DNA from: Terriglobia bacterium
GTDB taxonomy: Bacteria; Acidobacteriota; Terriglobia; JAIQFV01
DNA: 64,000 bases
Assembly: GCA_020073085.1 (NCBI GenBank)
Contig: JAIQFV010000013.1
Location: 62,001-126,000 of the forward strand
Direction: 5' to 3'
Positions within the stretch are counted from its first letter, which is position 1; each line of letters begins with the position of its first letter. Below, piece after piece: positions 5,652 through 47,888 of the stretch. The notes below the pieces were generated by a model. It saw nothing but the letters and a program-made list of their open reading frames with translations. It searched no databases and was not told where the DNA came from. The translations under genes were made by a program, and so were the position numbers.

Positions 5652-7292
5652 TTAATGCGAGGGGTTCGGACTGACCTTGGAGGGACGGCTCGAATCGACT
5701 GCCGGCATCTCTGGATGGGGATCCAGGCGCGACTCAGCGTCCATTGGAGAGGTCATTTTTGTTCGGCCACCCACGCCCACTTTTCGGGCTGTGGGTTCAT
5801 TCAAGATTCCCAATTCACGCTCGCCACGGGCGATGACCTCTTTCCACATATGCTCATTGTAGACGCACCCGGGGTCTCCCGCCTGGACATCTCCGGTATA
5901 GCTTTCAGCCCGGGCGCGGCAGCCACCGCAAAAGGAGCGGTAGTCACACACGCCGCAATGATCGCCGCGATCATCCCGGTCGCTCAAAATCGCTTCCAGG
6001 GGCTGGTTCCAGATTTCCGCGAAAGGGGTCTTGCGAAGGTCGCCGATCGTCCGCGTCGGCATGTAGACGCAGGGATTGACCTGGCCGTTGGGCTGGATCG
6101 AACAATAGCACCGATGAGCTCCGCAGCCCCCGATGTACTTGGAAACGACACGCGCCTGTTGGCCCCGGCCTGACCCGCCGTGCCCCATCGCCATCATGCC
6201 TTCGGGATCGCCGAACATCAGACAGGCCCGCCCGAATTGGGGCGCCGTCGACATGACGCTGATCCTTCCCTCGTTCAAGGTTTTTTGAAGGAGGATCAAG
6301 AGGGCTTCACGCTGTGCCGGCGACATGTCTTCATGGGCCATTTCGACGCCCCGTCCGACGGGAATGAAGTTGAAATGGACAAAAGTGTCCGCCCCGAGTG
6401 AAATGGCGAGGTCAATCATCTCCTGCGCATGCTCGACGGTATCGCGGGTGAAGCAGCAGGCAATTCCACATCGCATCCCCGCCGCACTCACATTCTTGAT
6501 ACCCTCAACGGACCGGGCCCAGGCCCCCTTCATCTGGCGAAAATCGTCATGGACGGCAGGATCAACGGAGTCTAACGAAACCTCCACGTATTTGACCCCG
6601 AGGGAAGCGAGACGTTCGCAGTTGCGGGGAGTGAGCAGGGTTCCATTGGTTGCGAGCGTCGCATACACCATCTTTTGTTGGGCTCGCTCCAATACCGCCC
6701 AGACATCGGGGTCGACCAGCGGCTCACCGCCCGCCAGGGCGATCAACGGAACGAGGTTTTCTGAAAGCTGGTCCACCACGCTCAATTTCTCGGCCCGGTT
6801 CAGCTCGTCGGAACCCCGCTTGTGAACCGCGTCCTGATAACAGTGCCGGCAAGACAGGTTACAGGCATTGGTGATGTTCCAGACCACCAGCAAGGGGGCG
6901 ATAAATCGCTGGGGGGCCAGCAGACCGTGAATGGCCACCGAACGCGCGGTGTTCAGGAGCGTCCGCGTCGTGGGCCTGTGATGAAAGACCTTCTCCACTG
7001 CCCGCTCGGGCGATATCCGGGTCCTGGCGATGAAGTAATCGATGGCTTTGTGGACCGGAGCATATTTGATCTTCTCATAAAGCGAGGCGTCAGGATTGCG
7101 GTAGGAATAGAAGATTTTTTCCATGGGCGTGTGCCCATTGGGACCCTGCGTCAAATGTTTCAGGATCCTCCGGGTAATGGGATGGCCGAGATACCCTTCA
7201 AATTCGTGGGGAGTGGCGGGCGCCGCCTGGGTCAGCTTGGAAACGGTTGGCCGCTTGGCGGTCTTGATACGAGTGCCGTCGGGGGTATACAT
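5652..7292 (-). CDS. Radical SAM/SPASM domain protein
   Basis: This is a 546-residue radical SAM protein. An approximately 135-residue helical N-terminal region precedes the radical SAM motif CNLSCRHC (Cys144, Cys148, Cys151), and the SAM-binding GGEPL follows. A cysteine-rich SPASM region (about residues 390-470: CGAHRCYC, CGVCDYRSFCGGC, DPGC) should hold auxiliary Fe-S clusters. SPASM proteins modify peptides or act in cofactor synthesis, for example the haem enzymes AhbC, AhbD and NirJ; the substrate here is unknown. It lies 111 bp downstream of the Tes-like gene on the same strand, so the two may be co-expressed and act in one pathway. The C-terminal ~50 residues are Pro/Ser-rich and look disordered. 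Confidence 0.85.
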   Translation of the reverse strand: MYTPDGTRIKTAKRPTVSKLTQAAPATPHEFEGYLGHPITRRILKHLTQGPNGHTPMEKIFYSYRNPDASLYEKIKYAPVHKAIDYFIARTRISPERAVEKVFHHRPTTRTLLNTARSVAIHGLLAPQRFIAPLLVVWNITNACNLSCRHCYQDAVHKRGSDELNRAEKLSVVDQLSENLVPLIALAGGEPLVDPDVWAVLERAQQKMVYATLATNGTLLTPRNCERLASLGVKYVEVSLDSVDPAVHDDFRQMKGAWARSVEGIKNVSAAGMRCGIACCFTRDTVEHAQEMIDLAISLGADTFVHFNFIPVGRGVEMAHEDMSPAQREALLILLQKTLNEGRISVMSTAPQFGRACLMFGDPEGMMAMGHGGSGRGQQARVVSKYIGGCGAHRCYCSIQPNGQVNPCVYMPTRTIGDLRKTPFAEIWNQPLEAILSDRDDRGDHCGVCDYRSFCGGCRARAESYTGDVQAGDPGCVYNEHMWKEVIARGERELGILNEPTARKVGVGGRTKMTSPMDAESRLDPHPEMPAVDSSRPSKVSPNPSH

Positions 7293-7403: not shown

Positions 7404-9059
7404 TTAATGTGAGCCATTCTTTTTGAATGGCACCGAGTATTTCTTCTCGATCATTTCCCTGAACGTCGGCCCGGAATTGTACGCGCAGAACGGGTAAATG
7501 AGGCCGTTGGGCGCGGCATAGTGGATGATGCAGCGCTTCACGCGCTCGACATCGTAATTGTAAGCATCCATGAAGTGCATCCCGGCCACCATCAGCGTCC
7601 TGTATGTGAATGTGCCGTCATTGCCGCCGCGGCCGTATTTCTTGTCGGTCATCCCTTGCAGCGTCTGCAGGAACTTGGGGAAGGTCAACCCCTTGGGGGC
7701 GTACTCCGGTTTGAAGTACTTTTGCAGGGATTGCCACACCTTGATCTTGGTGAAGAACTTGAAGGTCGCTCGGGTCGTCTCGCGTGAGATGGCGTCGATC
7801 GCTTGCAGCATGGCGCCGATGTCGACAAAACGGGTGATGGGCACGGCTTCCTTGCGGTCTTCGCTGACGAACAAATACGTGCCGATGGAGCAGTGGGGAT
7901 GGCTGCTCAACTGGGTGGTCTCCTCGCCCTTGACGGCGCTGAGGAGCTTTGAAAACGGGGTGACGCAGGACAGCGGGAACCAGTCCTCGTAGCGATTCGC
8001 CAGGCCGGTCTGCTCCTCGACGCATCGGGCCACATCCGTCATTGTAAAACGCTTGGCTTCCCGTTCCCGCTTGGCAATGCGGCCGGTAAAGGCGACCGGC
8101 TGGAAGCTGATCGCACTCGTGCAATCCACGTTTTCGATGGCCAACTTGAGGATGTCGCCGATCTGGTGATCGTTCAGCCCCTTTACAATGGTGGGGACAA
8201 AGCAGATCTTCAATCCGGCTTTTCGGCAGTTTTCGATGACCTTGAGTTTCTGCTCATACAAGGACTCACCGCGCGTGCGCTTGTAAATGTCGTCGCAAAC
8301 CCCGTCGAACTGCAGATACAGGGTGTGCAAACCGGCTTCTTTGGCCGCCATGGCGAAATCTAAATCGAGGAACTTGATGCCATTGGTGGCCGCCTGGAGG
8401 TGGGAGAATCCCATTTCTTGCGCCATGCGCAGGATATCGAGGAACCGGGGGTGCAGCGTCGGCTCGCCGCCGGAGAACTGGACCACCCGGCAGGCGACCG
8501 GTCGTTCGTTGCGCAAGGACTGCAACATCTTCCGGATGTGCTCCAGGGAGGGTTCGTAAAGGTAGCCTGAAGCATTGGCATTGGCAAAGCAGACCGGACA
8601 GGTCAGATTGCAGCGGTTGGTGAGATCGACGTTTGCCAAACCGGTATGGGAGGTGTGCATCGAGCACAAACCGCACTGCTCGGGGCATCGGGTGGCGTTT
8701 GGGATTGCCGGATTGGATACGCCCCGGTTATCGCCAAAGTGCCAGCGCTCCATTTTGAGGTACATCTTCGCGTCGGAATAACAGACGTCCTTGACGTATC
8801 CGTGTTCGGGGCAGGTCTTCTCCATCATGACCTTGCCGTCCTCCTCGAATACCAGGGCGTCAATCAGCTGGGTGCACTCCGGGCAAATGGACTGAGTCAC
8901 CTTCGGCAGCCCCACATGGGGGGGGTCAATGCGCGCCCCCGTGTAGGTCGTCTTGGGTTGAATGACCTGGTGTTGTGCAAATTGAAACCGATCCTCTTTT
9001 TCCTCTGCCGATGGCAGGTCGATAGTCTGGGGTTGGTCCTGAATTGTCTGTGTACTCAC
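7404..9059 (-). CDS. Tes/MJ0619-like radical SAM enzyme (putative membrane-spanning lipid synthase)
   Basis: This 551-residue radical SAM protein has two CX3CX2C motifs: CPEQCGLC (Cys125, 129, 132) and CNLTCPVC (Cys150, 154, 157), followed by FSGGEPTLH. Ahead of them are Cys59, Cys62, Cys83 and Cys93 in a CPEC ... CPEHG ... C arrangement that fits a rubredoxin-like metal site. C-terminal cysteines (HCSIG, CIIHYAAPNGLIYPFC) could hold a third cluster. This layout is that of archaeal tetraether lipid synthase (Tes, MJ0619), which joins lipid tails by C-C bonds between methyl ends. Bacterial homologues are candidates for making membrane-spanning lipids such as iso-diabolic acid or branched GDGTs. 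The GTG start follows a GAGGAGGA ribosome site. The family is firm and the substrate is inferred. Confidence 0.82.
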   Translation of the reverse strand: MSTQTIQDQPQTIDLPSAEEKEDRFQFAQHQVIQPKTTYTGARIDPPHVGLPKVTQSICPECTQLIDALVFEEDGKVMMEKTCPEHGYVKDVCYSDAKMYLKMERWHFGDNRGVSNPAIPNATRCPEQCGLCSMHTSHTGLANVDLTNRCNLTCPVCFANANASGYLYEPSLEHIRKMLQSLRNERPVACRVVQFSGGEPTLHPRFLDILRMAQEMGFSHLQAATNGIKFLDLDFAMAAKEAGLHTLYLQFDGVCDDIYKRTRGESLYEQKLKVIENCRKAGLKICFVPTIVKGLNDHQIGDILKLAIENVDCTSAISFQPVAFTGRIAKREREAKRFTMTDVARCVEEQTGLANRYEDWFPLSCVTPFSKLLSAVKGEETTQLSSHPHCSIGTYLFVSEDRKEAVPITRFVDIGAMLQAIDAISRETTRATFKFFTKIKVWQSLQKYFKPEYAPKGLTFPKFLQTLQGMTDKKYGRGGNDGTFTYRTLMVAGMHFMDAYNYDVERVKRCIIHYAAPNGLIYPFCAYNSGPTFREMIEKKYSVPFKKNGSH

Positions 9060-9569
9060 TCACTCCTCCTCGAATTCGCATTCTGCGTGATCTGGATCGC
9101 ATCCCTGAGGGACCGCCTGAATCTAACCTGAGTTGAAGAAGAAGCCTCCCCCCGAGAATATGGAAGACTGGGTTTCGTTCAGATTTGGCAGCCGCCCGCT
9201 CGGCAACTGCGTGGCGATTTACGCCTAAAGTCAGCCGAAAGTTGGCTTGCGGTTTGGTCTCGAGACATCGTCTCCTTGGCCCCGATGGGGCAGGGCCCGA
9301 CCGAGGACTGAATTTTACAACGCCAGCGCGTGGTGTCAAGTGGTGAATTATCTTGAAGTTACAGCTAACGTCAACGTCAGCTTATGACATGATTCGTTGG
9401 CCACGTGATATAATTCTCAGTTTAGTTAGGTGGTGGAGAGTTGGTTCTACTTGCATTGGGGGAGAACGAGAAAACGTAAGAAGATGCCGCCGGCGTTTAC
9501 ATATTCGAGTAGCGTTCGTCTGTGCAAGTCCGTGTCCCAGAGAAATTTGAACCCCTTGGAGTCTTAAGA
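9060..9569. promoter_or_regulatory. 510-bp divergent intergenic region with a possible promoter
   Basis: The two flanking genes diverge, so promoters for both should lie here. On the plus strand a TATAAT box at 9409-9414 is preceded by ATGACA at 9384-9389 with a 19-bp spacer, about 155 bp upstream of the MBL hydrolase gene. I see no convincing matching pair for the minus strand and no gene in the gap. The segment 9508-9540 resembles short sequences near 1017-1035 and 12390-12418 (a CGT-rich, GTCCGTGTCC-like motif). Confidence 0.35.
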
Positions 9570-10320: not shown

Positions 10321-12171
10321 CTATAGATTTTCCTGAATGTACTCCAGCGTGGTTCGATCCCCACTTCGAATTTGTGCGGCGAGGGATCGCGCGACGGACA
10401 ATCTTCGTTGCAGGTAGCGATCCGCCATGGTTGCTCGTTTTTCGTCGTCCGAATGATCGGCCAGGGCTTTCAGCAAACGGGCGCCATGAAAGAGGGAAAA
10501 CATCGTGGCGAGCCGCTCAGCATTCAACAAGGCATAGCTGAAGTGTCTTAGGTCCTCCCGTGAAAAGGCCGACTTTCCTTGCCGGATCAGATGGAACCAA
10601 CTCAAGTCCTTCCCGGCCCCCCTCGCGCTTTTCTTTTTTTCGCGAAGAATATCCATGACCAGGTATTGAATCGCGCCGGAGATTTCGTCCCGAATCGCCA
10701 GCAGGTTCTTGGTGGCGGCAGTGGCCCGCGACTTGGCCGCCTTCAGGGCCAGGCGGGCGCTTAAAAAGTCTTTCGGGCGGGACATGGCCCAATTGAGTTG
10801 ATCCTTGAGCGCCATGAGTGCTTGGATCTGCGAGGTCCCTTCATAAATGGCCGTAATAACCGAATTGCGCAGGTGCCGCTCCACTTCATATGATTCGAAA
10901 ATGCCATAGCCGCCATGAATCTGGAGGGCCTTCCGGGTGATCTCGACCGCCTTCTCCGCCCCCCAGTACTTGATCAAAGGGGTCAGCTCGCGGGCGTATC
11001 GTTCCATTTTTTTGACAAGCTGCTTCACCGTCCTGCCTTCAGCTTCACTTAACTTTCCTTCGGCCAGGAGTTTCTTCAGACCGACCCGCCGGTCCTCCGT
11101 CTGGGTGGCATCGTAAATCATGGCGCGAAGCGCCCGGATTTCCAGATCCATGTCCAACAGCATGTCCGCCACGAGTTCGTGCTGGGCAATGGGTTTCCCC
11201 ATTTGTCGGCGCTGCCGGGCATAGTCGTAGGCCTTTCGGTAAGCCGACTGACAAATCCCGAGGGACTGGATGCCGACCGCTACGCGCGCCTCGTTCATGA
11301 ACGACAGGATGTACTCCCAGCCCTTGCCCGGTTCTCCAATCAAGTACCCGATCGAGTTGTCGAAGTACTGTTCCAGGGTGGGCGAGCCGCGGAGCGACAA
11401 CTTGTGTTCCGGTTTCCCGATTTCAAAATTTTTCACGTGCTTGCCATCACGCTCAATAAAGCGCGGGACCAAATGCATAGAGAGCCCTTCCAGCCCCTTG
11501 GAGTTGGGATCCGTGCGGGTCAGCACCAGGGCGATGTCGCCGCAACCATTGGTGATGAACTGTTTTCGCCCGGTGATGCGCCAGGCGCCATCCCCAGCAT
11601 CGACCGCCGAAGTGGTAAGGGCGCCGACGTCGCTCCCGGCTTCCGGTTCCGTCATGGCGACCGACCCTGAAATTTCGCCGCTCGCCAATTTGGGGATGTA
11701 TCGTCTTTTCAATTCTTCATTTGCAAATCGAAGCAGCATCATGGCGGGGCTTTGATAAAAGGCGAGGAAACTGAGCGTGTTGGGACACGCGGTCGAGATC
11801 ATTTCAACCATCAGGGCATTGACGGTGTAGGGAAAGTTCCAGCCCCCCAGCTCTTTGGGCAGGCTGACCGCGAGGATCCCGAGTTGTTTCGCCGCCTCCA
11901 GATTTTCAACGAGACCGCCGGGGAGGATGACCTCTCCGTCCTTCCATTGAATCCCCGCCTGGTCGATTCCGGCTGCTCGAGGCGCCACTTCCCGGGCACA
12001 GAATTCACCGACCAGACTCAATGCTTCCTCGTATTGCTGCTTCGTTTCCTCGACGTTAAGCGGACCGTCACCCTCCTCGTGCCAGGCCGCACTGACCTGG
12101 TTCCAGTCAACGGCATGATGAAAGTGAAATTGGAGGTCGTCGTTCTCTGTGAAAAGGTTCTTGGAGGGCAT
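10321..12171 (-). CDS. Acyl-CoA dehydrogenase
   Basis: This 616-residue FAD-dependent acyl-CoA dehydrogenase has the signature MTEPEAGSDVGAL and the C-terminal block IHGGYGIFESYEVERHLRN. The catalytic-base region lies in the GTSQIQ helix. Length and the extended C-terminus (~150 residues beyond the core) resemble the long ACAD branch (FadE/AcdA-type, DUF1974-like tail). It should catalyse the first step of beta-oxidation with an ETF acceptor. It may serve the beta-oxidation block at 26-33 kb, although it stands apart from it. The start at 12171 is preferred over the open frame to 12237, because the extra residues are encoded by the REP-like repeat. Confidence 0.9.
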   Translation of the reverse strand: MPSKNLFTENDDLQFHFHHAVDWNQVSAAWHEEGDGPLNVEETKQQYEEALSLVGEFCAREVAPRAAGIDQAGIQWKDGEVILPGGLVENLEAAKQLGILAVSLPKELGGWNFPYTVNALMVEMISTACPNTLSFLAFYQSPAMMLLRFANEELKRRYIPKLASGEISGSVAMTEPEAGSDVGALTTSAVDAGDGAWRITGRKQFITNGCGDIALVLTRTDPNSKGLEGLSMHLVPRFIERDGKHVKNFEIGKPEHKLSLRGSPTLEQYFDNSIGYLIGEPGKGWEYILSFMNEARVAVGIQSLGICQSAYRKAYDYARQRRQMGKPIAQHELVADMLLDMDLEIRALRAMIYDATQTEDRRVGLKKLLAEGKLSEAEGRTVKQLVKKMERYARELTPLIKYWGAEKAVEITRKALQIHGGYGIFESYEVERHLRNSVITAIYEGTSQIQALMALKDQLNWAMSRPKDFLSARLALKAAKSRATAATKNLLAIRDEISGAIQYLVMDILREKKKSARGAGKDLSWFHLIRQGKSAFSREDLRHFSYALLNAERLATMFSLFHGARLLKALADHSDDEKRATMADRYLQRRLSVARSLAAQIRSGDRTTLEYIQENL

Positions 12172-12194
12172 GCGGGGATCCTCGTTATATGCCT

Positions 12195-12220
12195 TGTAGG
12201 GGCGCACAGCCGTGCGCCCC
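12195..12220. repeat. REP-like palindrome, complete copy
   Basis: The arms TAGGGGCGCAC and GTGCGCCCC flank AGCC in a near-perfect palindrome 23 bp upstream of the acyl-CoA dehydrogenase start. A partial, diverged copy follows at 12265-12285 with the TAGGGCGCATAGTCCGCC spelling of the 2104 copy. This 250-bp gap has no gene. Confidence 0.7.
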
Positions 12221-12422
12221 CATTGCGAGGATATCACATTCGGGTGATGCCCGCGCGCGCTGCCCCGGTAGGGCGCATAGTCCGCCGCAGATGCCCCCGC
12301 AGCGAAGATTTCGCAATTGCCTCAAGGAACTCTATTTTTGACATTCGTATTAGCGCATGCCCGTGCTGATTTGTCCGGAGGCCTTCATCCGCGTCACTCT
12401 GTGTGCGTCCGTGTCCAAGTGA

Positions 12423-13520
12423 TCACTTCCGAAAATTCTCCGGCGCCAGGGTGCGGTTGAGGATGACGCGCGTGAAGACGAGCGATTCCGCCAACTGGCC
12501 GGCGATGTAGCGATCGATCCGGAAGGGGAATTTGACGGTCGCTCCCGAGTCTGGGGCCTTGGCCGCCGGCTTTCCCGAAAACGGATCGGGGCTCGAGAGG
12601 GGGACGTCACGGTAGTTAGAGAACTCATAAACCTCGGTGAGTGCGACCGGTTGATTTGAAAACGGATCCGTCGCCGTATCGTAATCAAATTCCATGCGCG
12701 TGACCAGCGAAGTGGCGTCGTCAATGTAATAGCGCGTCGATTTCCCCGGCGCGCCGCCTTGAGGACCATGACCGTTTCCGGGTGAATCATCGACTTCAAT
12801 GACCTTCCTGTTCCTGGCGGCTTCAAAGGCCGGAGTAGGATGGGCTCGATCAAGGTGCCCACTCGCATTCCCATTTCCGTTGCTATTATCCGGAACTCCG
12901 CTGGCGCCCTGCCCCTGCGCAGTAAACCGGTCGGTGAGGTCGGCGAGGTTCTTGCCATGCTTACGGAAGTTGAACAACGCCTCCAGGGAACGTTCGGTTT
13001 GGGATTCGATAAAGCGCTGGACATGGCCTGCCGCCCTGGTGCTGAGAGGACCGGCCGAGTGCCACTGGTCATTGCCATCGGTTCCTTCGCGCGTGAGGAC
13101 CCTCTCAGGCGAGCGTGGGTTGACAAAAGACGATTGTAGTGGTGTAGACCCGTCTGGAGACGCATCGGGCGCCTTGAAAATGAGTCGCTGAAGCTTATCG
13201 CCCTTGGACCCGCCTCCCGCAAGATCGGCTTGGTGAATCACGGTCACCGGAAACGTCTGCTGGGATTGCTGACTGTCACTATTCACCGTGGATGGATCTG
13301 AAACATATCGATAGATCGTCACCGTCCCCTGAGCGACCCACGTCTTGACCGCCCCTTTCTGCCAGGCGCTCCCATGTGCGTTGGCAGCCCGATCCGCCTG
13401 TCCCGCGGCAGAATTGACCTGCGCCCAACAGGTCAGGGATGCGGACAGTAACAGAGCAATGATGCCGATCAAGTGACCACTCACCCCGATGACCTCTAAA
13501 ATGCTCTTCTTATTTCTCAT
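12423..13520 (-). CDS. Secreted protein of unknown function, paralogue A
   Basis: This 365-residue protein has an N-terminal signal-like hydrophobic stretch (about residues 14-31, LIGIIALLLSASLTCWAQ) and is otherwise soluble. I do not recognise the family. Conserved blocks shared with its paralogue at 15943 include QQTFPVTVIHQADLAGGG, TRYYIDDATSLVTRMEF and FPFRIDRYIAGQLAESL. The last two resemble lipoprotein-carrier-like outer-membrane beta-structures only loosely. The start has GAGGTG seven bases upstream. It is 237 bp downstream of a TPR gene on the same strand, the same pairing as for its paralogue. Nucleotide identity with the paralogue is high across the whole gene, so the duplication is recent. 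Confidence 0.75.
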   Translation of the reverse strand: MRNKKSILEVIGVSGHLIGIIALLLSASLTCWAQVNSAAGQADRAANAHGSAWQKGAVKTWVAQGTVTIYRYVSDPSTVNSDSQQSQQTFPVTVIHQADLAGGGSKGDKLQRLIFKAPDASPDGSTPLQSSFVNPRSPERVLTREGTDGNDQWHSAGPLSTRAAGHVQRFIESQTERSLEALFNFRKHGKNLADLTDRFTAQGQGASGVPDNSNGNGNASGHLDRAHPTPAFEAARNRKVIEVDDSPGNGHGPQGGAPGKSTRYYIDDATSLVTRMEFDYDTATDPFSNQPVALTEVYEFSNYRDVPLSSPDPFSGKPAAKAPDSGATVKFPFRIDRYIAGQLAESLVFTRVILNRTLAPENFRK

Positions 13521-13757
13521 GTTTCACCTCGCCATGGAGTTTTTTTCCAGATTTCTTTCCATTTGGATGAGGTCCTCTCGCCACTCGAAGGTCCTGGTCA
13601 AACTACACATCCCTGTCGTGTGCGGCGTCCTCTCGACCACCAGTCGCGGCCACCGCATTTCTCTCAAGATGCTTCCAAATTACTGAGAGAGCGGGTGATT
13701 CATTGAAGATCACGGGCTGGTCCTCCCTACCTTATGCATGAAACCGCAATTGCTCGC

Positions 13758-14489
13758 TTAATATTGCTTATTTGCCTTCTTCCGCATTTCAGACATCTTC
13801 TCGTCGGTTTCTGGTGTGTGAGGAAGAGTCTCATACCATTTGAGTGCCTCCCCGTAACGACCTCTATATGCTAATATATCGGCGAGTCTCCGCTTCCTGT
13901 CATTGGAGTCATCAGGGCCTCTTGTAAGCGAAATGGACTTCTCCATTAGGGTGATACCCTCTTGAAGGGTCGTGGACTTCTCAGATAGGGCTCTGCCCAA
14001 GACCCATACTGACTCTGAATAGTAATCGGCATAGCCCGATGACACTGTATCCAATTGCCGCTTTGGCATCTTTTCAAACAATTGCACTGCAGTTCTAAGT
14101 TCCTTTATAGCCCCCTGTCGGTCTTGACCAAGTGCGCCCGCGAGGTCAAAATGTATTATGGGATTATTGGGATCCAACCTTACCGCAAGCTTCAGCTCAT
14201 CCAAGGCTTCTGATTGATACTCCTCAAATTCTTCACCGCCTTTCTTGCCCGCAGCTAAGCACAGGTAAATCCTAGCGAGATAGTGATGGGCTTCTGCAGA
14301 TTGCGGGTCCGATACGACAGCTGCCTGCAACTCTTTAAGGGCCTCGCGCTTGCCCTCCTCTGTGGCTGCTACGCTGTCACTGCAGTTCCCCTCAAAAAGA
14401 CTCTTCCCTTTGTCAAGGTGTGACGGTGTCGCTCCCTCCAAACCACCCGGGCATAAGGTGATCGAGAATAAGGCAAAGTAGAGAAACAT
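13758..14489 (-). CDS. Secreted or anchored TPR protein
   Basis: This 243-residue protein begins with a hydrophobic signal-like segment (MFLYFALFSITLCPGG). TPR-like helices follow (EALKELQAAVVSDPQSAEAHHYLARI; ALDELKLAVRLDPNNPIIHFDLA). I chose ATG 14489 because GGGAGG precedes it at good spacing and a signal sequence follows at once. The open frame runs to 14591, overlapping DNA next to the RAYT gene. It lies upstream of secreted paralogue A. A longer TPR protein lies upstream of paralogue B, so TPR + secreted protein looks like a repeated module. Its AT-richer composition differs from the metabolic genes around it. Confidence 0.7.
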   Translation of the reverse strand: MFLYFALFSITLCPGGLEGATPSHLDKGKSLFEGNCSDSVAATEEGKREALKELQAAVVSDPQSAEAHHYLARIYLCLAAGKKGGEEFEEYQSEALDELKLAVRLDPNNPIIHFDLAGALGQDRQGAIKELRTAVQLFEKMPKRQLDTVSSGYADYYSESVWVLGRALSEKSTTLQEGITLMEKSISLTRGPDDSNDRKRRLADILAYRGRYGEALKWYETLPHTPETDEKMSEMRKKANKQY

Positions 14490-14612
14490 GGAACTGGCCC
14501 TCCCATATTCGATTTGGCGTCCATCAAGCATTGACGCTCCTAACATGAGCTGACGTCTTAAAATCCAAATAAATTGGGGTCGCATCTCCATAATCCATTT
14601 TTCGATTCGGCC

Positions 14613-15665
14613 TTAATTCTCGGCCAACGTTTTCAATAGGCGCGAGGCGCGGTCGACAAACGGGGCGATGGTCGGATCGGCCCGCATCAAAGCCTTGAAT
14701 CGTCGGATGGCTTCGCATACCGCCTTGTAGCGCATCCCTGCTGCCGCACGACCGAGGTCGTGCAGACTTAGCCCGCAATTCTCGTTGGCCAGATACAAGA
14801 CCAAATCCCTGCCCCAATCCCCGTAGTGGTCCAACATCTGGTTCCACGATTCTTCCCGCACGGTTTCCACCACCCGGATGACCTGCTCCACCGCCGGCCG
14901 TGGAATCCAATGGCGCACATTCCCCTGTTCCTGGACGTTGCCATGGACGCGGCCTTGCAGTTGGGTGACAAAGGCCGCGCTTCCCAAGACCACTTGGGCC
15001 GTCAATTGCTGCCAGGGTTGCTGCTTCAAGCCTTCGCGGAGCGCCGCCTCGACGTACTGTTGGTACGCTCGAGCCGGATCTGGCGTATCGGCCCCCATCC
15101 ATCCCAGCACTTGTTCGCACTCCAGCCAGGAAGGCTGGGGCACCCGGCCAACGTAAGCCCGGTAGGAGCTCCAGGGATAATTCCTCAAATACTCGAGCCG
15201 CTCCTGCCATTGGAGGTCGGTTCCTTCTCCTCCGGTTCCCCTTTGATTCCGCGCCCGACTGCGTTTTCCCAACTGAAAGCGTTCCACTCTGACGGGATTC
15301 AAATGGATATACCGGCTCAACTCCAGCCCCCACGCCTGCGGCTCCACGACGATCCCCTTGAATCGTCCCTGCAGCAGATGACCGCAGCGCCGGTGTCGGG
15401 CGTTGAACCACTGACTATACCCGCTGTTGAGCCATCGCATCGCGGCGCTGAGATTGGCCTCTAAGGTCTGTAACAGGAGATGATAATGATTCACCATCAA
15501 AGCGTAAACGTACAATCGTACCTGGAACCGCGAGGTCATTTCCCTCACCCGATTCAGAAATTCAGATCGATCCGCGTCGTCCAGGTAAATCGGTCGTCTC
15601 TCATTTCCACGGGACGTAATATGATACCAACACCCCTCCCATTCAATCCGTAGCGGGCGAGCCAT
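14613..15665 (-). CDS. REP-associated tyrosine transposase (RAYT, Y1/HUH type)
   Basis: This 350-residue protein is of the Transposase_17 (IS200-like, REP-associated) family. The HUH motif is NHYHLLL (His60, His62), and the likely nucleophile is Tyr83 in GYSQWFNARH. The family block HLLQGRFK and the ELSRYIHLNPVRV motif follow. The C-terminal part (about residues 265-310, LVLYLANENCGLSLHDLGRA) resembles the DnaA-like helix-turn-helix seen in long RAYTs. Such enzymes cut and join single-stranded REP hairpins and are usually single-copy, domesticated-looking genes. No IS ends are obvious at its borders. The GTAGGGGCGC palindromes of this window are candidate substrates. The start at 15665 lacks a clear ribosome site. 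Confidence 0.88.
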   Translation of the reverse strand: MARPLRIEWEGCWYHITSRGNERRPIYLDDADRSEFLNRVREMTSRFQVRLYVYALMVNHYHLLLQTLEANLSAAMRWLNSGYSQWFNARHRRCGHLLQGRFKGIVVEPQAWGLELSRYIHLNPVRVERFQLGKRSRARNQRGTGGEGTDLQWQERLEYLRNYPWSSYRAYVGRVPQPSWLECEQVLGWMGADTPDPARAYQQYVEAALREGLKQQPWQQLTAQVVLGSAAFVTQLQGRVHGNVQEQGNVRHWIPRPAVEQVIRVVETVREESWNQMLDHYGDWGRDLVLYLANENCGLSLHDLGRAAAGMRYKAVCEAIRRFKALMRADPTIAPFVDRASRLLKTLAEN

Positions 15666-15942
15666 AAGCGCACCATTCCGGGGGTCAATGAAGGGGGGCT
15701 CAGGGGGAGGAACCATGATACCGCACTCTGTGACCAAGAACACCATTAAGAAAAGGTGGTTTCTTGCAATAAGCGGGAGGTGGCGCGAAAAAAGGGCTTG
15801 TCGGTTCGACGGCGGCCGTTCATGTCCAAGCCTGACTCTTGGCCGGTGGCGACTTCGAATGGAACACCATTATCCGATTATCCCAGTTTTCCGCTGGAAA
15901 ATGGATTCTGGAGATGCGACCCTTCAAGCTGTGTCCCAGGGT

Positions 15943-17025
15943 CTATTTTCGAAAATTCTCCGGCGCCAGGGTGCGGTTGAGGATGACGCGCGTGAAGACG
16001 AGCGATTCCGCCAACTGGCCGGCGATGTAGCGATCGATCCGGAATGGGAATTTGACGGTCGCGCCGGGATCTGCTGCCTTGGCCGCAGGCTTTGCTGAAA
16101 ACGGGTCGGGGGTCGCGAGGGGAACGTCACGGTAGTCCGAAAACTCATAGACCTCGGTGAGCGCGACCGGTTGATTTGAAAACGGATCGGTCGCGGTGTC
16201 GTAGTCAAATTCCATGCGCGTGACCAGCGAAGTGGCGTCGTCAATGTAATAGCGCGTGGACTGAGACGGCGAGGCGCCTTGAGGACCATGACCGTTTCCG
16301 GGTGAATCATCGACTTCAATCACCTTCCTGTTCCTGGCGGCCTCAAAGGCCGGAGTGGGATGCGATCGATCGCGGTGGCCATTTGCATTCCCGTTTCCAT
16401 TGTCGTTGCCATTATCCGCAGCTCCGTTCGCCCCTTGCCCCTGTGCAGTAAACCTGTCGGTGAGGTCTGCGAGGGTCTTGCCATGCTTGCGGAAGTTGAA
16501 CAGGGCCTCGAGTGATCGTTCGGTTTGGGATTCGATGAAGCGCTGGACGTGGCCGGCTGCCTTGGTGCTGAGCGGGCCGGCCGAGTGCCACTGGTCTGTT
16601 CCGTCGGTCCCTTCGCGCGTGAGAATCCGATCAGGTGAGCGAGGATTGGCAAGAGAGGATTGAGGTACTGTGGATCCGTCGGGAGATCTATCGGGCGCCT
16701 TGAAAGTGAGTCGCTGCAGCTTATCGCCCTTGGACCCGCCTCCCGCAAGATCGGCTTGGTGAATCACGGTCACCGGAAACGTCTGCTGCGATTGCTGAGT
16801 CTCGTTATCGTAGCGATAGACGGACACCGTCCCGCTGGCCACCCACGTCTTAACGGCCCCCTTCTGCCAGCCGTCGCCATGTGCCTTCGCGGCCCGATCT
16901 GCATGTGCCGCGGCAGAATTGCCCTGTGCCCAACAGGTCATGGATGCGGACAAAAATAGAGCGATGATCCCGATCAAATGACCGCTCACCCTGATGACTC
17001 CGACAAAGCAGTTCTTATTTGTCAT
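15943..17025 (-). CDS. Secreted protein of unknown function, paralogue B
   Basis: This 360-residue secreted protein is closely similar to the one at 12423 across its length, including the signal region (HLIGIIALFLSASMTCWAQ) and the C-terminal LNRTLAPENFRK. The start is ATG 17025 after GGAGG at six bases; about 50 bp of upstream DNA also resembles the other copy. Small in-frame differences (a shorter segment near residue 75, a few extra Asn/Gly codons near residue 205) suggest that both copies remain under selection. The end of this gene is 278 bp from the RAYT start. The function is unknown. Confidence 0.75.
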   Translation of the reverse strand: MTNKNCFVGVIRVSGHLIGIIALFLSASMTCWAQGNSAAAHADRAAKAHGDGWQKGAVKTWVASGTVSVYRYDNETQQSQQTFPVTVIHQADLAGGGSKGDKLQRLTFKAPDRSPDGSTVPQSSLANPRSPDRILTREGTDGTDQWHSAGPLSTKAAGHVQRFIESQTERSLEALFNFRKHGKTLADLTDRFTAQGQGANGAADNGNDNGNGNANGHRDRSHPTPAFEAARNRKVIEVDDSPGNGHGPQGASPSQSTRYYIDDATSLVTRMEFDYDTATDPFSNQPVALTEVYEFSDYRDVPLATPDPFSAKPAAKAADPGATVKFPFRIDRYIAGQLAESLVFTRVILNRTLAPENFRK

Positions 17026-17040
17026 GTTCCGCCTCCACAT

Positions 17041-17425
17041 AAAGTCTTTTTCCTGATTTCTTTCGTTTCGATGAATTCCTCTAACCAGTCCCTATCGTTG
17101 GCTAAACCAATTCGTGCCTAGTGTGCCATCACCTCAACCGAGAATGCGCTCCACCGCACGCCTCCCGGGATGCAATCAAATCTCACAAAAACCGAGTGAT
17201 TTGTCGAATGTCAGTCTGCCCCGGGTTTTCATTTTGAGTGGCTCCTCAATCTCGTTGTCAATGGTCACATTTCTCCATGAGGAGCAGAGGACTTGATCGG
17301 TGATCCGCTCATGGTAAGATCCTCATCCCGCCGAGTCGTATTGCTGATGCTTGAAGCTCCACCCCGCGCGCGTCTCGACGAGCTAATGGTCAAGGCATCT
17401 CCCAACTGCCTAGGAACATTTTTTG
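17041..17425. other. 385-bp gap without a gene
   Basis: Apart from about 50 bp resembling the upstream region of paralogue A, I see no gene, repeat or clear promoter here. No short open frame in it has a credible ribosome site and protein-like composition. Confidence 0.4.
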
Positions 17426-18631
17426 TCAAGGAGAAATTTCTCTGGCAAACTTCTTCAACTCATCCAATTGACTGGATTCGATGATCTTGCGAACTTCCTC
17501 AGACCTGGATGAATCCAATTCCAGGGCCTTTTTGAAAAACTCCTGTGTCATTCCTGACAGATCCTGTGGTGGCTTCGAGGTGGCCAAAGATGCATCCTTC
17601 TTCGCACTGCGACTGTACGTCTGTTCTAGCGGAGAACCCAACCACTCCTGTTGCTTCTGTGCCGCCTTCGTGCCGACCCTTATTAGAAACTCTGCCAATT
17701 CTTTCCGATCGATGAGTGACACCAAGTTGAGGCTTGGCGTGTCACCAAACACTCGCGGTCGATACGGAGAAATCGCGAAAAGCACACGGTCAAAGTTCTG
17801 GCGCCGGGGTTCAACGTCAATGAGAATTAGATAACCTTTCAGAAGCCGTGAGTATTGTTTCGATTTCTGAGCTACGCGTTCGAGACAATCAATCACTTCG
17901 ACAGGTCCGACCTTCTCGGCAAAGGACTTTAAGTACTCTTCACTTGCGCTTTCCCAATCCTCCTTCATTTCGTAAGTTGATGCCAAGAAGCTATGAACAG
18001 TTGGATACTCTGGATTCAGCTTCTGGACGATGCGCAAGTTGCGAATCACTTCATCCAAATTGGAACTTGATGCTGTCCTTGCGATTCCGAAATAGGCGTC
18101 AGGGTTTGTCGGGTCAAGCTCGCGAGCTTTCTGATAAGTCTCCCACGCTTCTTTCTGGACCAAATGGAATTGCTCCGGTTGGTGCGTATTGCTTAAGCGA
18201 ATGCATTTCTCCCAGAGGATCCCACCCAAGACAAGATATGCTGCAGGGGAATTGGGGTTCAACTTAATCGCTTGTTTGATGTATTCCACTCCTTTGTCAA
18301 ATGCGAGTGCTCTGAGTTCTTCCGTCGGAGCCCCGTCATCAGACCACTCATATCCATTCCTGTTGCATAACCAGGTCCCCTTTAGGAAGAGCTCCAAGGC
18401 CTCTCCGCTCAGAGAAGGATAGAGTGCAGCAAGGGCTTTTATGACCTTTGGATCGCGCGCATGTTGTTCAGCTCGACGCTCCTGCTCCATTAACGCGCCT
18501 TGGCGATGCTCTGGGTTCGGATTCCGCGGCAGTGACAGTTGCCAAGCCAGAGTTGTCATTGTCAGGAGAGACAACGCTAGGACGCTAGGAAACAAAATAG
18601 TGCAGAGCTTTGGTTTTTCACAAGTCGGCAT
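17426..18631 (-). CDS. Membrane-anchored TPR protein
   Basis: This 401-residue protein has an N-terminal hydrophobic anchor (about residues 10-30, ILFPSVLALSLLTMTTLAW). A run of TPRs follows (ALAFDKGVEYIKQAIKLNPNS, YQKARELDPTNPDAYFGIAR, IVQKLNPEYPTVHSFLAS). The chosen ATG 18631 begins directly with the anchor; the frame is open to 18664. It starts 30 bp after the stop of the long secreted gene, so they were probably one operon with paralogue B downstream. The transposon and the in-frame stop upstream may now affect its expression. The partner is unknown. Confidence 0.75.
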   Translation of the reverse strand: MPTCEKPKLCTILFPSVLALSLLTMTTLAWQLSLPRNPNPEHRQGALMEQERRAEQHARDPKVIKALAALYPSLSGEALELFLKGTWLCNRNGYEWSDDGAPTEELRALAFDKGVEYIKQAIKLNPNSPAAYLVLGGILWEKCIRLSNTHQPEQFHLVQKEAWETYQKARELDPTNPDAYFGIARTASSSNLDEVIRNLRIVQKLNPEYPTVHSFLASTYEMKEDWESASEEYLKSFAEKVGPVEVIDCLERVAQKSKQYSRLLKGYLILIDVEPRRQNFDRVLFAISPYRPRVFGDTPSLNLVSLIDRKELAEFLIRVGTKAAQKQQEWLGSPLEQTYSRSAKKDASLATSKPPQDLSGMTQEFFKKALELDSSRSEEVRKIIESSQLDELKKFAREISP

Positions 18632-18660
18632 AAAGGCCCTCCATTCTAACGGTGCATAAT

Positions 18661-21600
18661 TCACCAGCTAATGTGGATATGGTTAGGAAGTCCCCTCTCA
18701 CCAGTGCATGGGATCGGGCCGGCCAGATTTTCACAGATTGCACTTGTACCTGGCCGAGCTTGTGCAGCCAATACGATTAAGCCCCACGTGTCAAGTTCAC
18801 TGAAGTTTACCGGAAAAGCGTCTGGTTTCAAGTCCAGTGCTCTGCCGAATTGATGGTTGCTATTGATAGTTGTGCTATAGATTTCGTTGTGCTCCGGGTT
18901 GCGAAATCCGGAATTTACATGCAGCCCGAAAGTCAAAGTTTGATCGTGAGCAAGATCGCGGATGAGAGAGATGTAATTTGCTAAGACCTGTTCTGCGACT
19001 GAGGCCATGCCTCTGTCGACGGCAAAGGCATAATCACCGCTATTGAGCTTATCGCAGAAGTGCTCGCTACAATCGACTGGGTAAAGTCCCAACTGACTAG
19101 GTATCTTGTCGACCTCAAGACTTCTGTACTCTCCGTGTTCAAGGTTTGTAATCACAGAGTGATTAATATACTCCTGAACAAAAATATCTTTGTATTCAGC
19201 CAATTGGGAAATGGTAACTGGATCACTATGGATTCCAGCAACACTGGCAGTAACATTATATAAATAGGAGATGGGACTGGGGCGCCCGCTCCCTCTTGAA
19301 TACCCGGGGTGACTTGGTGTGGGGTAGAAACTGGTGTTGGCTCCGGGATTAGGTGTCAGAGGGTTGCCGCTATTCGAAGGCTGGTCGCCCACGACCTGCC
19401 AGGTGATTGTCCCATCCCGTACATTCGTGCTGGCGCTTAGTTGAATCGGGTTGTTTGCCCCATTCAGGCGTAGAATTCCCTGACTGCTGACGTCCTGTTC
19501 AATGCCATTGATATTTGTGGCCACGAAGCTGAGGGTGTTGGGGTGATCGGGGGCTGTGATTCTTACGTAGGGGGTCAATACAGTGACCGTCGGATTGGCG
19601 TTGTGGTTGGGATCGACATTCGGTACCGGAGACGAAAAGAAATCCCTGAGTCCATTGACGGTTCCATTCACGGCGATGCTGTAACGAGCGGTCGCCGGGG
19701 GAAAATCCACCGTCGATCCCTCGGCGGGGCAGGCCGAGGCACAGTCGTAGACGGTGCTCACAATCCCGGCGATGTCCCGGCTTATGGTGGCATGGCTGAC
19801 GTGGATGGTGTTCCTTGCACTGTTGGCAATGCTCCAGGAAAGCGTGGTGGATTCGCCGGCTGCGATGGAGGTGGGACTGGCTTCCAGTTTGGCGCTTAGC
19901 GCGGGAGCCGTATTGACGCACTTGGTGCCCGATTTTGTGAATTCGAGACCAAGCAAAGGGATAGAGATGGTGAATCCACTCATCTCAGCGCAGAGCTGGT
20001 CATCAACAGGCAGATCAGTGATTGTGAATGTGTCCGTGCAATCATAATCCGAGGAGCCACAGTTAGGTGCTGTGCCCGGCAGGAAAAAGGCAGGTTTTAT
20101 CGTGTAACTCAGCGTCTTGGTTTTCCCGGGCCAAAAGCCAATTGCCTCACCTGTGATCCCCCCGAAATCGCAAATGATGGGTGTGCAGAAGTGCAAGTTT
20201 ATTTGGTCGTCCCGGATCGAGTACATGGACACCTCGATCTCTAATTCTCCCAAAATTCCCACGTAAGTGAATCGAAGGTTCTTGAGGTCTCCCAGTTTCA
20301 GTGTCTTGAAGCAGCTCTGATCGCCCAGAATCCCTCCGCAATCCAGAACGCGAAGAAGATATCCGCCACGGAGGATCGGGATGGAAGTGTTGCACCCGTC
20401 GTCGCACGAATAGCCCCCTACAGGAAAGAAGGGCACGGGGAAATTCGAGATGCGACCTTGTTTATGGCCCTTTGGTTTGGGTTTGAACTTGTGCATCTTC
20501 ACCGCCGCAAAGCGTTGAGTGAGAAGCTGGGTCGGCTGACCCGGCTTGATATTTTCGATAGCTCTCTTGGACTCGTCCAAGGAAGCGATCCGGAGTTGCA
20601 CTCGGTCGGATTCTTCTCCGGTGCCCACCTTCAGTGTAACGGGCGTATCCGGTGGAACATCAGGGTCCACGACCAGCACACCAACTATTGAATCGTTGTC
20701 AGAGGGTTTCTTCTCGGCCTGGGTTTCCAGTGAATTCAGATCGACGTGAACGCGCGGGTCATCCGACTCGATGGAGGCCCCCGTGAGATTATTTCCTTCA
20801 ATCTGGAAAAAATATGCTTTTCCAGCAACAGGAGTAGAAGGAGTGAAAGCTTCCACGCTCGGTCGGGTGGTCGAAGTTAGGACCCGCACGCGCACCCCAG
20901 TGGATTCAAATTCCGGAATCCCGACCACAATGAAATATGTCCCCTCGGCGGTCGAGGCTTCTGCCGTCAAAGTGAACTGAAGCTGAGCGTCACCCGAATG
21001 GATCAAGTCTGTGATTGTCAGGTCGGATCCACCATCGACCTCCGCGTTGGAGAGATTGCTTCCTGTGACGGTGAAGGTCTTTGTCGATCCCGCCAGGATC
21101 ATGGAGGATGAAACGGAGTCGACCACCGGTTTGCCCGCTGAATTCGGTGGGTTGATTGTAAAGTTTTTGGTCACGCTTCCCGTCGGGGTGGTGACGGACA
21201 AGGGAACATTGCCTAAGGGAGCTTCCGAGCCAATATACAGGATGGCCGTAATTTTTGTGGGATCGAGCACTTGCACATCAGCGATCGCAATCTTGGAATC
21301 CGTGGGCACGCTCAACGTTGCTCCCGTGAAGCCGGATCCGGTGATCTCAATCGGGAGGTCGTGTTGCTTCTGGTATCCTGAACTTGGAGTAACCGCAGTC
21401 ACCGTGGGCGGCGTACCGACCACAACGGCCCTGTTTTCGGACGGCATTCCGAACCACTGATTGGTGTCTTTCACCATCTGCCACTGAAAATTGTACGCCC
21501 CGATCGTGGTGGGTGCAGTGATATTGAAAGAGAACATCTTGGTCGCTCCCGGCGCCACGGTTTCACCCGCAGCGAGGGACACACGGGTAAGTCCCCAGAT

Positions 21601-21697
21601 GGTGTTATCGGGTGGCGATTGGGAGCCGAGGCGGTAGTTTCCACTCGACCTCCATGGTAGGGTTCCCGTGTTCTTGAAAGTTACTGATACCGGGTAG
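18661..21697 (-). pseudogene. 3' part of transposon-split secreted TIG/NBR1-Ig/M15-peptidase protein
   Basis: This is the downstream 1,012 codons of a long secreted protein whose 5' part lies at 23894-25845. In frame above the GTG at 21582 the code reads LSYPVSVTFKNTGTLPW, the missing start of an NBR1-like Ig domain, and then runs into the transposon end. Several TIG/IPT-like beta domains follow. The C-terminal ~180 residues look like an M15-type peptidase: GFRNPEHNEIY, HQFGRALDL and the final HIHISW supply the expected zinc-ligand His and Asp. Joining 23894 to 21697 keeps the frame exactly. A shorter protein could still be made from GTG 21582, but it would lack a signal peptide. Confidence 0.8.
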
Positions 21698-21705
21698 GAT
21701 AATCC
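21698..21705. repeat. Target site duplication, left copy (GATAATCC)
   Basis: The octamer GATAATCC occurs here and at 23894-23901, directly outside the inverted ends of the transposon. Keeping one copy restores the reading frame of the split gene through the codons for Gly-Leu-Ser. Confidence 0.85.
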
Positions 21706-21780
21706 GGTAGTGGGTCAGTTTGAAATCTGATTCCATCGAATTTTCTTGCATTCAACCCCGAAAAGTATTATGTTCCCAGC

Positions 21781-22029
21781 ATGCATAAACGCTCAAGCAC
21801 AACCACTGATATTAATCTTATCGCGGCAAGCATAGTTGATGCCGCCACGTCCGACAAACCAACCAAAACCCCAACCATGCCAGATGGAAAAAACGCCGCC
21901 GCCGTTCTATTGGGACGCCGTGGGGGTCTCATAGGTGGCAAAGCCAGGGCTAAGATACTCTCCCCAAGAAAACGAAAGGCAATCGCCAAACGCGCCGCAC
22001 TCGCAAGATGGGGCGCTGAAAAGTCGTAA
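21781..22029 (+). CDS. Small basic protein with GGxxGGKAR motif
   Basis: This 82-residue protein ends in a conserved-looking basic module, LGRRGGLIGGKARAKILS, then a KR-rich helix and an ARWG end. Similar tails occur in many small bacterial proteins that are often annotated hypothetical or histone-like, and nucleic-acid binding is plausible. It is the first gene inside the transposon, 57 bp past the insertion duplication's inner edge plus end sequence. The segment CGCTCAAGCACAA just inside its start recurs directly before the transposase gene (22601), which may be a shared regulatory or transposase-binding site. Confidence 0.6.
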   Translation: MHKRSSTTTDINLIAASIVDAATSDKPTKTPTMPDGKNAAAVLLGRRGGLIGGKARAKILSPRKRKAIAKRAALARWGAEKS

Positions 22030-22140
22030 TTCACTCATACAACCCTCACCCACCAGATCAAACACACGCCAGCCTTACAGAATAACAAACAAATACTCTA
22101 CTGATGTTGGAGTTGCGCTGATGGGGAGATGTGATAGAGT

Positions 22141-22226
22141 ACGCAGGGCGTCCGTAGCTCAATGAATAGAGCAGCTCTTTGTCGAGGGGCCAGATGTGGG
22201 TTGAACTCCCACCGGACGCCCTGCGT
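22141..22226 (+). tRNA. tRNA-like structure, anticodon GTC (Asp), with acceptor stem extended to 14 bp
   Basis: Bases 22148-22220 fold as a cloverleaf. It has acceptor GCGTCCG/CGGACGC, D stem GCTC/GAGC, anticodon stem GCTCT/GGGGC with loop TTGTCGA (anticodon GTC), a five-base variable loop, and T stem GTGGG/CCCAC with loop TTGAACT. The acceptor continues outward for seven more perfect pairs, ACGCAGG (22141-22147) with CCTGCGT (22220-22226), making 14 bp; base 22220 would serve either as discriminator or in the stem. There is no encoded CCA. The D loop has GA where GG is usual, and the T loop has G in place of C56, so the normal elbow contact is changed. It may be a tRNA mimic, a decayed tRNA or a functional odd tRNA. 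Confidence 0.6.
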
Positions 22227-22281
22227 CATGCTTTCTTTTTCTGGGGGTCGAATTTCATCCCCAGAGAAAGGGGGTGTCACG

Positions 22282-22350
22282 ATGAAGCCTAATTTCATCG
22301 TGGCGATTATCCAGTTTGGGGACACTGTAATTGTCCTCATCTGGATATAA
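22282..22350 (+). CDS. Possible 22-residue hydrophobic peptide
   Basis: An ATG preceded by AAGGGGG (eight bases away) opens a 22-codon frame, MKPNFIVAIIQFGDTVIVLI plus WI. The peptide is strongly hydrophobic. It lies between the tRNA-like structure and a terminator, so it is likely to be transcribed. Size and composition resemble small membrane peptides such as type I toxins, but nothing else supports that reading. It may be chance. Confidence 0.3.
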   Translation: MKPNFIVAIIQFGDTVIVLIWI

Positions 22351-22358
22351 GCCCCGCC

Positions 22359-22393
22359 GGGCTCCTGTCCTTCAAGGGGTGGGAGCCCTTTTT
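22359..22393 (+). terminator. Rho-independent terminator
   Basis: The stem GGGCTCC (22359-22365) pairs with GGAGCCC (22382-22388) and is followed by TTTTT. It ends the leftward passenger unit (small protein, tRNA-like structure, micro-ORF) before the transposase gene. Confidence 0.75.
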
Positions 22394-22401
22394 ACTGACA
22401 A

Positions 22402-22607
22402 ACAACCAATTCTGTTTGTTTGATTACAACCAACAAAATTGGTTGTCTACTACCGCACAATCTATATTTCTTGAGATGAATATGTCAAGACATATTCATG
22501 AACAATAATAGATTTCTCACCCATCCACCACCACCTCCCCCAAACAAGAGAAATCCTGAAATTCTAAATTTTACAAAAAACTTCTTGACAATTGCTTGAC
22601 CGCTCAA
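22402..22607 (+). promoter_or_regulatory. Palindrome-rich control region of the transposase
   Basis: Two perfect inverted repeats are present. ACAACCAATT pairs with AATTGGTTGT (about 22402-22446). ATGAATATGTC pairs with GACATATTCAT around AA (22476-22499). A TTGACA box lies at 22585-22590 and GCTTGA/TCAAGC at 22594-22607, just before the transposase ATG. The sites could bind a repressor or the transposase. No clear -10 box fits the short distance, so the TTGACA may be coincidental. Confidence 0.4.
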
Positions 22608-22620
22608 GCACAATCCAACC

Positions 22621-23451: not shown

Positions 23452-23468
23452 CAAACTCGGTGATATAA

Positions 23469-23578
23469 TGAATGGCGAAGCGGGATACTTCCCGCTAGGA
23501 GGTTGATCCATGACTAAACTCATGGAATACCTAGTGCGAATACCCCGTCGCCATTCACGCAGACAGTGCGGGAAGTGA
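23469..23578 (+). other. Hairpins and possible 22-codon basic ORF downstream of the transposase
   Basis: GCGGGA/TCCCGC (23480-23495) forms a small hairpin, followed at once by the ribosome site AGGAGG (23497-23502). An ATG at 23510 opens a frame of 22 codons (MTKLMEYLVRIPRRHSRRQC, then GK, stop 23576-23578). TGAATGGCGA (23469-23478) pairs with TCGCCATTCA (23548-23557), so the ORF start could be folded away. The remaining 23579-23893 of the element holds no recognisable gene. Confidence 0.3.
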
Positions 23579-23893
23579 CCGCCGCCGAGCCACGGTCAAA
23601 CACTGTCTTGCCGCGTGTCGATCGCACGCGCACCGAAGACCACGGAGGACATTTCATGCAGAGAAGCATGCGTATTACACAAACCCATGACCTGCCGTGG
23701 CCGAAGTAACCGGCTGAGTGGTAAACTCGGACGTCGGACGCCGCTAGCCAAGTCGCGACAGGCAGAATCCGCCGTTAAGGGGCCGTGAGCATTTGTACGA
23801 TGCGATCGGCCCTGAAATCCATTTTTGCTATTTGTTCCCATGTGCTCTCGCTTCCGCTTTATTTCCTTGCGCCATTCAAACTGACCCATTGCC

Positions 23894-23901
23894 GATAATC
23901 C
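23894..23901. repeat. Target site duplication, right copy (GATAATCC)
   Basis: This is the second copy of the octamer at 21698-21705. It directly abuts the right inverted end of the transposon. Confidence 0.85.
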
Positions 23902-47878: not shown

Positions 47879-47888
47879 AGGAGCAACC

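Follow-up and report, generated by a model that had tools for sequence, protein, structure and literature searches.

A canonical Tes homologue and a Ger-type reductase as candidate enzymes of branched GDGT synthesis in Terriglobia

Branched GDGTs (brGDGTs) from soils, peats and lakes serve to reconstruct past temperature and pH, and to our knowledge the bacteria that make them, together with the enzymes involved, are largely unknown. In archaea the tetraether synthase Tes joins the tails of two lipids, which yields lipids that span the membrane. Zeng et al. (2022) described 456 bacterial homologues of Tes, Acidobacteria included, and proposed that they act in brGDGT synthesis (PMC8941075). Halamka et al. 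(2022) proposed the same role for the Tes homologue of Solibacter usitatus, an organism that makes iso-C15 diethers and brGTGT, carries homologues of both Tes and PlsAR, and has been proposed to reach brGTGT/brGDGT by a diether route (PMC10087280). A second coupling enzyme, Mss, is reported to share its catalytic architecture with Tes (PMC13274423), and a 2025 survey listed the proposed activity of bacterial Tes as unconfirmed (PMC11868695). A role of bacterial Tes in brGDGT synthesis has therefore been on record since 2022 and is not new. What is new here is the pairing of Tes with the glycerol ester reductase Ger, the occurrence of tes-ger gene clusters, and the observation that the common acidobacterial Tes paralogue has lost the ligands of its N-terminal cluster; no earlier report of such clusters, of near-perfect Ger pairing or of the ligand loss was found in the open-access papers searched, and Sahonero-Canavesi et al. 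(2022) may hold some of this.

The window, that is, the whole 64,000-nucleotide stretch of DNA that was analysed, comprises bases 62001-126000 of contig 13 (C13) in a 5.8 Mb genome (68 contigs, 98.7% complete) whose nearest named neighbours belong to Acidobacteriota, class Terriglobia; the organism is an acidobacterium from soil. An earlier note, made from the letters of the window, had described a 551-aa open reading frame with a GTG start at 7404-9059 of the minus strand, and the frame is present exactly as claimed. The features used below are as follows.

7404..9059, minus strand: tes-like gene, 551 aa, GTG start; predicted canonical tetraether lipid synthase (radical SAM)
9060..9072, minus strand: ribosome-binding-site-like sequence GAGGAGGAG, directly upstream of the tes GTG start
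8802..8885, minus strand: rubredoxin-like metal site, Cys59, Cys62, Cys83 and His86, mapped from MJ0619 C9/C12/C33/H36; invariant
8655..8687, minus strand: putative N-terminal auxiliary [Fe4S4] site, Cys125, Cys129, Cys132 and His135, from MJ0619 C73/C77/C80
8589..8612, minus strand: radical SAM motif CX3CX2C, Cys150, Cys154 and Cys157, from MJ0619 C98/C102/C105
7485..7892, minus strand: putative C-terminal auxiliary [Fe4S4] site, Cys390, Met494, Cys510, Tyr514 and Cys525; invariant in canonical Tes
5652..7292, minus strand: gene for a radical SAM/SPASM protein of 546 aa; follows tes in the same orientation after a gap of 111 bp

Compared with the 96% identical copy from the same genus (JAIQFY010000006.1, Terriglobia bacterium SRVP_39), the gene has a dN/dS of 0.046, and compared with a same-family copy in JAQUPQ010000007.1 a dN/dS of 0.063. 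Ratios this low (~0.05) point to strong purifying selection and mark tes as a working protein gene; the frame is real and did not arise by chance.

Family assignment and structure prediction agreed with each other. The protein scored 589 bits against the NCBIfam Tes equivalog NF045702 (cut-off 450), spanning positions 2-485 of the 486 in the model, while the best match to any non-Tes family, the TrsS model NF045646, gave 333 bits and stayed under its cut-off of 490. In the PDB, the tetraether synthase MJ0619 (7TOL) was by far the best sequence match, with 459 bits over residues 50-546 and 43.4% identity across 488 aligned residues. An AlphaFold2 model built with 25 bacterial homologues as input (mean pLDDT 79.7, pTM 0.85) placed 7TOM/7TOL at the top of a Foldseek search (E ~1e-50, TM-score 0.80 by query and 0.88 by target, 502 columns), with the third match at a TM-score of just 0.32; judged by the 7TOM match, the Tes fold is predicted over the whole length. 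The earlier note had likened the protein to archaeal MJ0619/Tes, had proposed comparing a predicted structure with Tes, and had allowed that the protein might instead group with MJ0619-like proteins of other function. Both the profile scores and the predicted model bear the likeness out, and the grouping is with Tes. By family, predicted fold and predicted cofactor sites, the window gene is a true bacterial Tes.

Residues named for MJ0619 (PMC9433317) were transferred to the window Tes through sequence alignment. The rubredoxin site of MJ0619 reads C9-X2-C12-X20-C33-X2-H36 (PMC9433317). For the corresponding site the earlier note had named Cys59, Cys62, Cys83 and Cys93; the first three stand and the last does not, because MJ0619 H36 maps to His86, which makes His86 the fourth ligand. 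Consistently, His86 is among the invariant columns of the 25 bacterial homologues and Cys93 lies outside them. The auxiliary CX3CX2C (125/129/132), the radical SAM CX3CX2C (150/154/157) and the extra C-terminal cysteines, all anticipated, were found, and the protein carries the radical SAM motif, the rubredoxin-like CX2C-X20-CX2H and both auxiliary [Fe4S4] sites expected of Tes. His135 is probably the residue that the structure paper calls a 'conserved histidine' (H83 in MJ0619), and conservation suggests C390, C510 and C525 as the most likely cysteine ligands of the C-terminal cluster. Across the 38 canonical bacterial Tes compared, all four metal-ligand sets are invariant. The labile Met439 of MJ0619 maps to Met494 and the active-site Tyr459 to Tyr514 (residues as in PMC9433317). 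The residues named for the MJ0619 mechanism are retained save for the Ser271 contact, the sole change in the SAM pocket, where the window Tes has Ala (Ala323) and the contact runs through the backbone.

A possible partner of the gene emerged from its genomic context in other genomes. Among contigs with flanking DNA, six genomes (assigned to Acidobacteriota, Gemmatimonadota and Glassbacteria) share one arrangement: the gene that comes after canonical tes has the same orientation and encodes a ~1040-aa protein in which PF01869 occurs twice and PF09989 is also present, and next comes the gene for a ~430-aa partner. Two PF01869 plus PF09989 is the domain set described for Ger/PlsA, the glycerol ester reductase that converts ester to ether (PMC13274423). 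In the count of six, locus L119 stops inside the first gene, and genome G286 represents the same contig as L116.

tes-ger clusters, Acidobacteriota: L115, L116, G233
tes-ger clusters, Glassbacteria: L119, L127
tes-ger cluster, Gemmatimonadales: L121

The host genome has a candidate Ger pair of its own on contig C4, with proteins of 1065 aa and 423 aa. Identity to the clustered protein is 54%, and in the C4 sequence PF01869 falls in two stretches and PF09989 scores 199 bits (L146:4863-8057). Here tes (C13) and ger (C4) lie on separate contigs. A further contig, C35, holds four genes (L148, 9094-13645) encoding two BcrAD-type activases and two ~425-aa proteins; they resemble the gene set of a benzoyl-CoA reductase or of a 2-hydroxyacyl-CoA dehydratase and probably have nothing to do with lipids.

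The two genes also tend to occur together. With the host's own Ger (C4) as query, Ger was present in 8/8 genomes of the class sample that carry canonical Tes and in 5/73 of those that do not (Fisher p = 4e-8). In a Bryobacteraceae-like family (f5, the family of genome G049; 200 genomes), 39 of 41 Tes-positive genomes had Ger; once three Tes fragments are counted the figures become 42/44 Tes-positive vs 7/156 Tes-negative genomes (odds ratio 447, p = 2e-33), and several of the discordant genomes are incomplete. Across a phylum sample of 297 genomes drawn evenly, the two-gene form of Ger was found in 15/33 Tes-positive vs 4/264 Tes-negative genomes (p = 5e-13); in every one of these p values, related genomes were counted as if independent. 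Counted by family in the same sample, two-gene Ger occurred in 8 of 15 Tes-positive families vs two other families (p ~5e-6, assuming 86 families). For the Bryobacteraceae-like family, an rpoB tree was built from 79 genomes, taking in just those in which Tes and Ger agree, so that it counts independent changes rather than concordance; on it the joint Tes-Ger state required seven changes (7-9 over bootstraps), at least four of them on supported branches. Ger is not strictly required, because 18 of the 33 Tes-positive genomes in the phylum sample are without two-gene Ger; a fused ~1400-aa Ger relative is present in 3 of those 18 and, in the phylum sample as a whole, is not associated with Tes (3/33 vs 26/264, p = 0.65).

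We consider it probable (roughly 70%) that the window gene encodes a lipid tail-to-tail coupling enzyme which acts with a Ger-type reductase on iso-C15 glycerol lipids to give branched GDGT or GTGT. The earlier note had offered the gene as a candidate for bacterial membrane-spanning lipids, and the co-occurrence with Ger and the tes-ger clusters speak for that candidacy. By analogy with the biochemistry of MJ0619, which consumes two SAM per bond (PMC9433317), a 5'-deoxyadenosyl radical would remove hydrogen from a lipid tail at its terminal (omega) carbon, and the resulting carbon would be parked on a sulfur of the C-terminal [Fe4S4] cluster, which has been proposed to carry the substrate radical. 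The terminal-carbon radical of a second tail would then attack the bound carbon, forming the C-C bond of a membrane-spanning chain. For the bacterial enzyme we infer a substrate, a product and an order of steps: the likely substrates would be iso-C15 glycerol lipids that are at least partly ether-linked (mono-/diethers) through the C4 Ger, the end product would be branched GDGT or GTGT, and ether formation would come first, with coupling second. Iso-C15 ethers are favoured as substrate because Ger is present. The pocket tolerates bacterial lipids, since MJ0619 binds bacterial phosphatidic acid after expression in E. coli (PMC9433317).

Canonical Tes is not the only Tes-like protein in this genome. 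Contigs C2 and C6 each encode a further one of ~700 aa; their scores, 324 and 312 bits, fall under the Tes cut-off.

L047, 9128-11212 (own contig C2): ~700-aa Tes-like paralogue
L048, 8787-10805 (own contig C6): ~700-aa Tes-like paralogue

Such long paralogues are near-universal in the class, whereas canonical Tes is rare and patchy: among 81 class genomes, 78 had a Tes-like match of some kind (E 1e-60 or better) and 8 had canonical Tes above the cut-off. The N-terminal auxiliary [Fe4S4] ligands are gone in 12/12 long paralogues and kept in every canonical bacterial Tes compared. In a quick tree with one archaeal sequence and the root unset, the long paralogues formed one fast-evolving clade (SH-aLRT 100) within the bacterial Tes radiation. 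Two kinds of putative coupling enzyme coexist, given that the near-universal ~700-aa paralogue has lost the N-terminal [Fe4S4] ligands. The kinds also occur close together on the DNA: on contig 84 of G412 (L269, 5683-9548) the long paralogue and canonical tes stand in tandem on one strand, the former ending ~280 bp short of the latter, and in G046 and G077 the two lie within 8 kb. A radical SAM gene directly downstream of the C2 paralogue was considered as a general feature and set aside, being limited to the two genomes of the host genus.

The presence of two kinds bears on the alternative that survives best, which we nevertheless hold to be unlikely, namely that the window enzyme couples ester-linked fatty tails, with iso-diabolic acid tetraesters as the main product and ethers arising later or incidentally. 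Iso-diabolic acid is abundant in most Acidobacteria studied (PMC10087280, PMC13274423), and in Bacillota it does not seem to matter for C-C coupling whether the bonds are esters or ethers (PMC13274423). Yet ester-bound iso-diabolic acid is common in the group, as the long paralogue is and canonical Tes is not, and canonical Tes tracks the ether enzyme. The earlier note had named both iso-diabolic acid and branched tetraethers as possible products; the context favours the ether-linked tetraethers, and ester-bound iso-diabolic acid less so. It is conceivable, at somewhat under even odds, that the ~700-aa kind makes the ester iso-diabolic acid lipids and that the canonical kind, gained and lost with Ger, is a dedicated brGDGT synthase, in which case tes plus ger would mark the true producers. 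The common ~700-aa paralogue could instead be the main brGDGT enzyme.

A different lipid or a different link, for example macrocyclic (tail-joined) diethers or an H-shaped brGMGT made together with the neighbouring SPASM enzyme, appears quite improbable. The second Tes of M. acetivorans, MA_1114, gave macrocyclic archaeol alone in a heterologous host (PMC8941075). The SPASM protein has an AhbD/NirJ2-like core (the nearest models, NirJ2/AhbD, were matched at half their cut-offs) and ~130 aa of helices at its N-terminus, a feature also described for GMGT synthase; archaeal Gms, itself a SPASM enzyme, has a helical domain at its N-terminus and is separated from AhbC/AhbD by network analysis alone (PMC11186832), and a role in making brGMGT has been suggested for its bacterial homologues (PMC11868695). 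Likened in this way to the description of Gms, the neighbour is possibly a Gms-like lipid enzyme, although its membership of the system is uncertain. The gene was found in 5/81 class genomes, every one of them Ger-positive (p = 5e-5), but its adjacency to tes is confined to the family of the window genome, and its six to seven N-terminal helices come from a low-confidence AlphaFold model (mean pLDDT 52.5). As a conserved partner of tes it was rejected, and it remains a lead.

The remaining alternatives can be dealt with briefly. A non-lipid function, whether pterin methylation, the role originally proposed, or a TrsS-type role, is very unlikely: the Pfam name of the N-terminal zinc ribbon does derive from an old HMPTM annotation, and TrsS is matched below threshold at 333 bits, but the protein lies far above the Tes cut-off, a pterin role is uncorroborated for MJ0619 and ill-suited to its hydrophobic pocket (PMC9433317), and the window Tes retains the N-terminal cluster and the counterparts of Met439 and Tyr459, all three of which a haloarchaeal plasmid relative is without. 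Least probable of all is the synthesis of archaeal isoprenoid GDGTs, the products of the closest characterised relatives (PMC8941075, PMC9433317), because the host genome gave no match to GGGPS/PcrB in a search that found the archaeal controls, and has bacterial-type ester reductases instead; like the pterin and TrsS roles, it was discarded.

Archaea are represented in our comparison by one Tes, MJ0619, read from the PDB alignment, and hence no conclusion is drawn on the direction of transfer. A search for archaeal Tes in viral contigs found none, and one in plasmids returned distant relatives alone, at ~30% identity or less. Two acidobacterial Tes from the same phylum (L158 in G310 and L159 in G322) branch near MJ0619, in genomes without two-gene Ger; L158 is 47.5% identical to MJ0619 and 40.8% to the window Tes. 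A separate transfer from archaea is possible for these two.

Elsewhere in the window, the conserved genes for fatty-acid oxidation beside tes (FadJ, FadI and acyl-CoA dehydrogenase) were rejected as functional evidence, since they follow the genome family and are absent near Tes elsewhere. A block of ~14 kb (12423-25900) has no counterpart in two sister genomes (L040, L041); the acyl-CoA dehydrogenase (10321-12237) and FadJ (26173-28320) genes that flank it here adjoin each other in those sisters. Two 365-aa paralogues that belong to no family sit in the block. It also contains a tyrosine transposase of the REP-associated type (14613-15746), a pair of large Ig/TIG-like proteins and, at 22148, a tRNA-Asp. 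At 47736-50012 the window encodes a double AAA ATPase that is CDC48/VAT-like and carries CDC48 N-terminal domains; such proteins are better known from archaea and eukaryotes.

Judged from sequence, the tes and ger pair are good, testable suspects for branched GDGT synthesis. If canonical Tes and Ger do constitute the bacterial tetraether pathway, a screen for these two genes could pick out real producers in genomes and metagenomes. Having both kinds of Tes in one genome also amounts to a natural experiment on the purpose of the N-terminal iron-sulfur cluster, a question left open by the MJ0619 structure paper (PMC9433317). As a gene the window tes is ordinary; its use lies in allowing brGDGT biosynthesis to be tested directly.

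Set beside the archaeal Tes/GDGT-MAS enzymes (MJ0619, PDB 7TOL/7TOM; MA_1486; Maeo_0574), the window Tes has the same predicted fold, length, four metal sites, labile Met and active-site Tyr. It differs in that its host is bacterial and without GGGPS, which makes archaeol an unlikely substrate, and in that its genomic partner is Ger, where the archaeal enzymes have a geranylgeranyl reductase. With the homologues of Zeng et al. and Halamka et al. (2022) it shares the family, by their definition, and the proposed brGDGT role; in the parts of those studies available to us, the canonical four-cofactor kind was not separated from the ~700-aa kind and tes-ger clusters were not reported. Mss (Sahonero-Canavesi et al. 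2022) carries out the same overall reaction as Tes, a likeness drawn from its description. The C4 protein, with its 423-aa partner, has the domain set of Ger/PlsA (PF01869 twice plus PF09989), encoded by two genes in the host genome and by a single chain of ~1400 aa in other Acidobacteriota.
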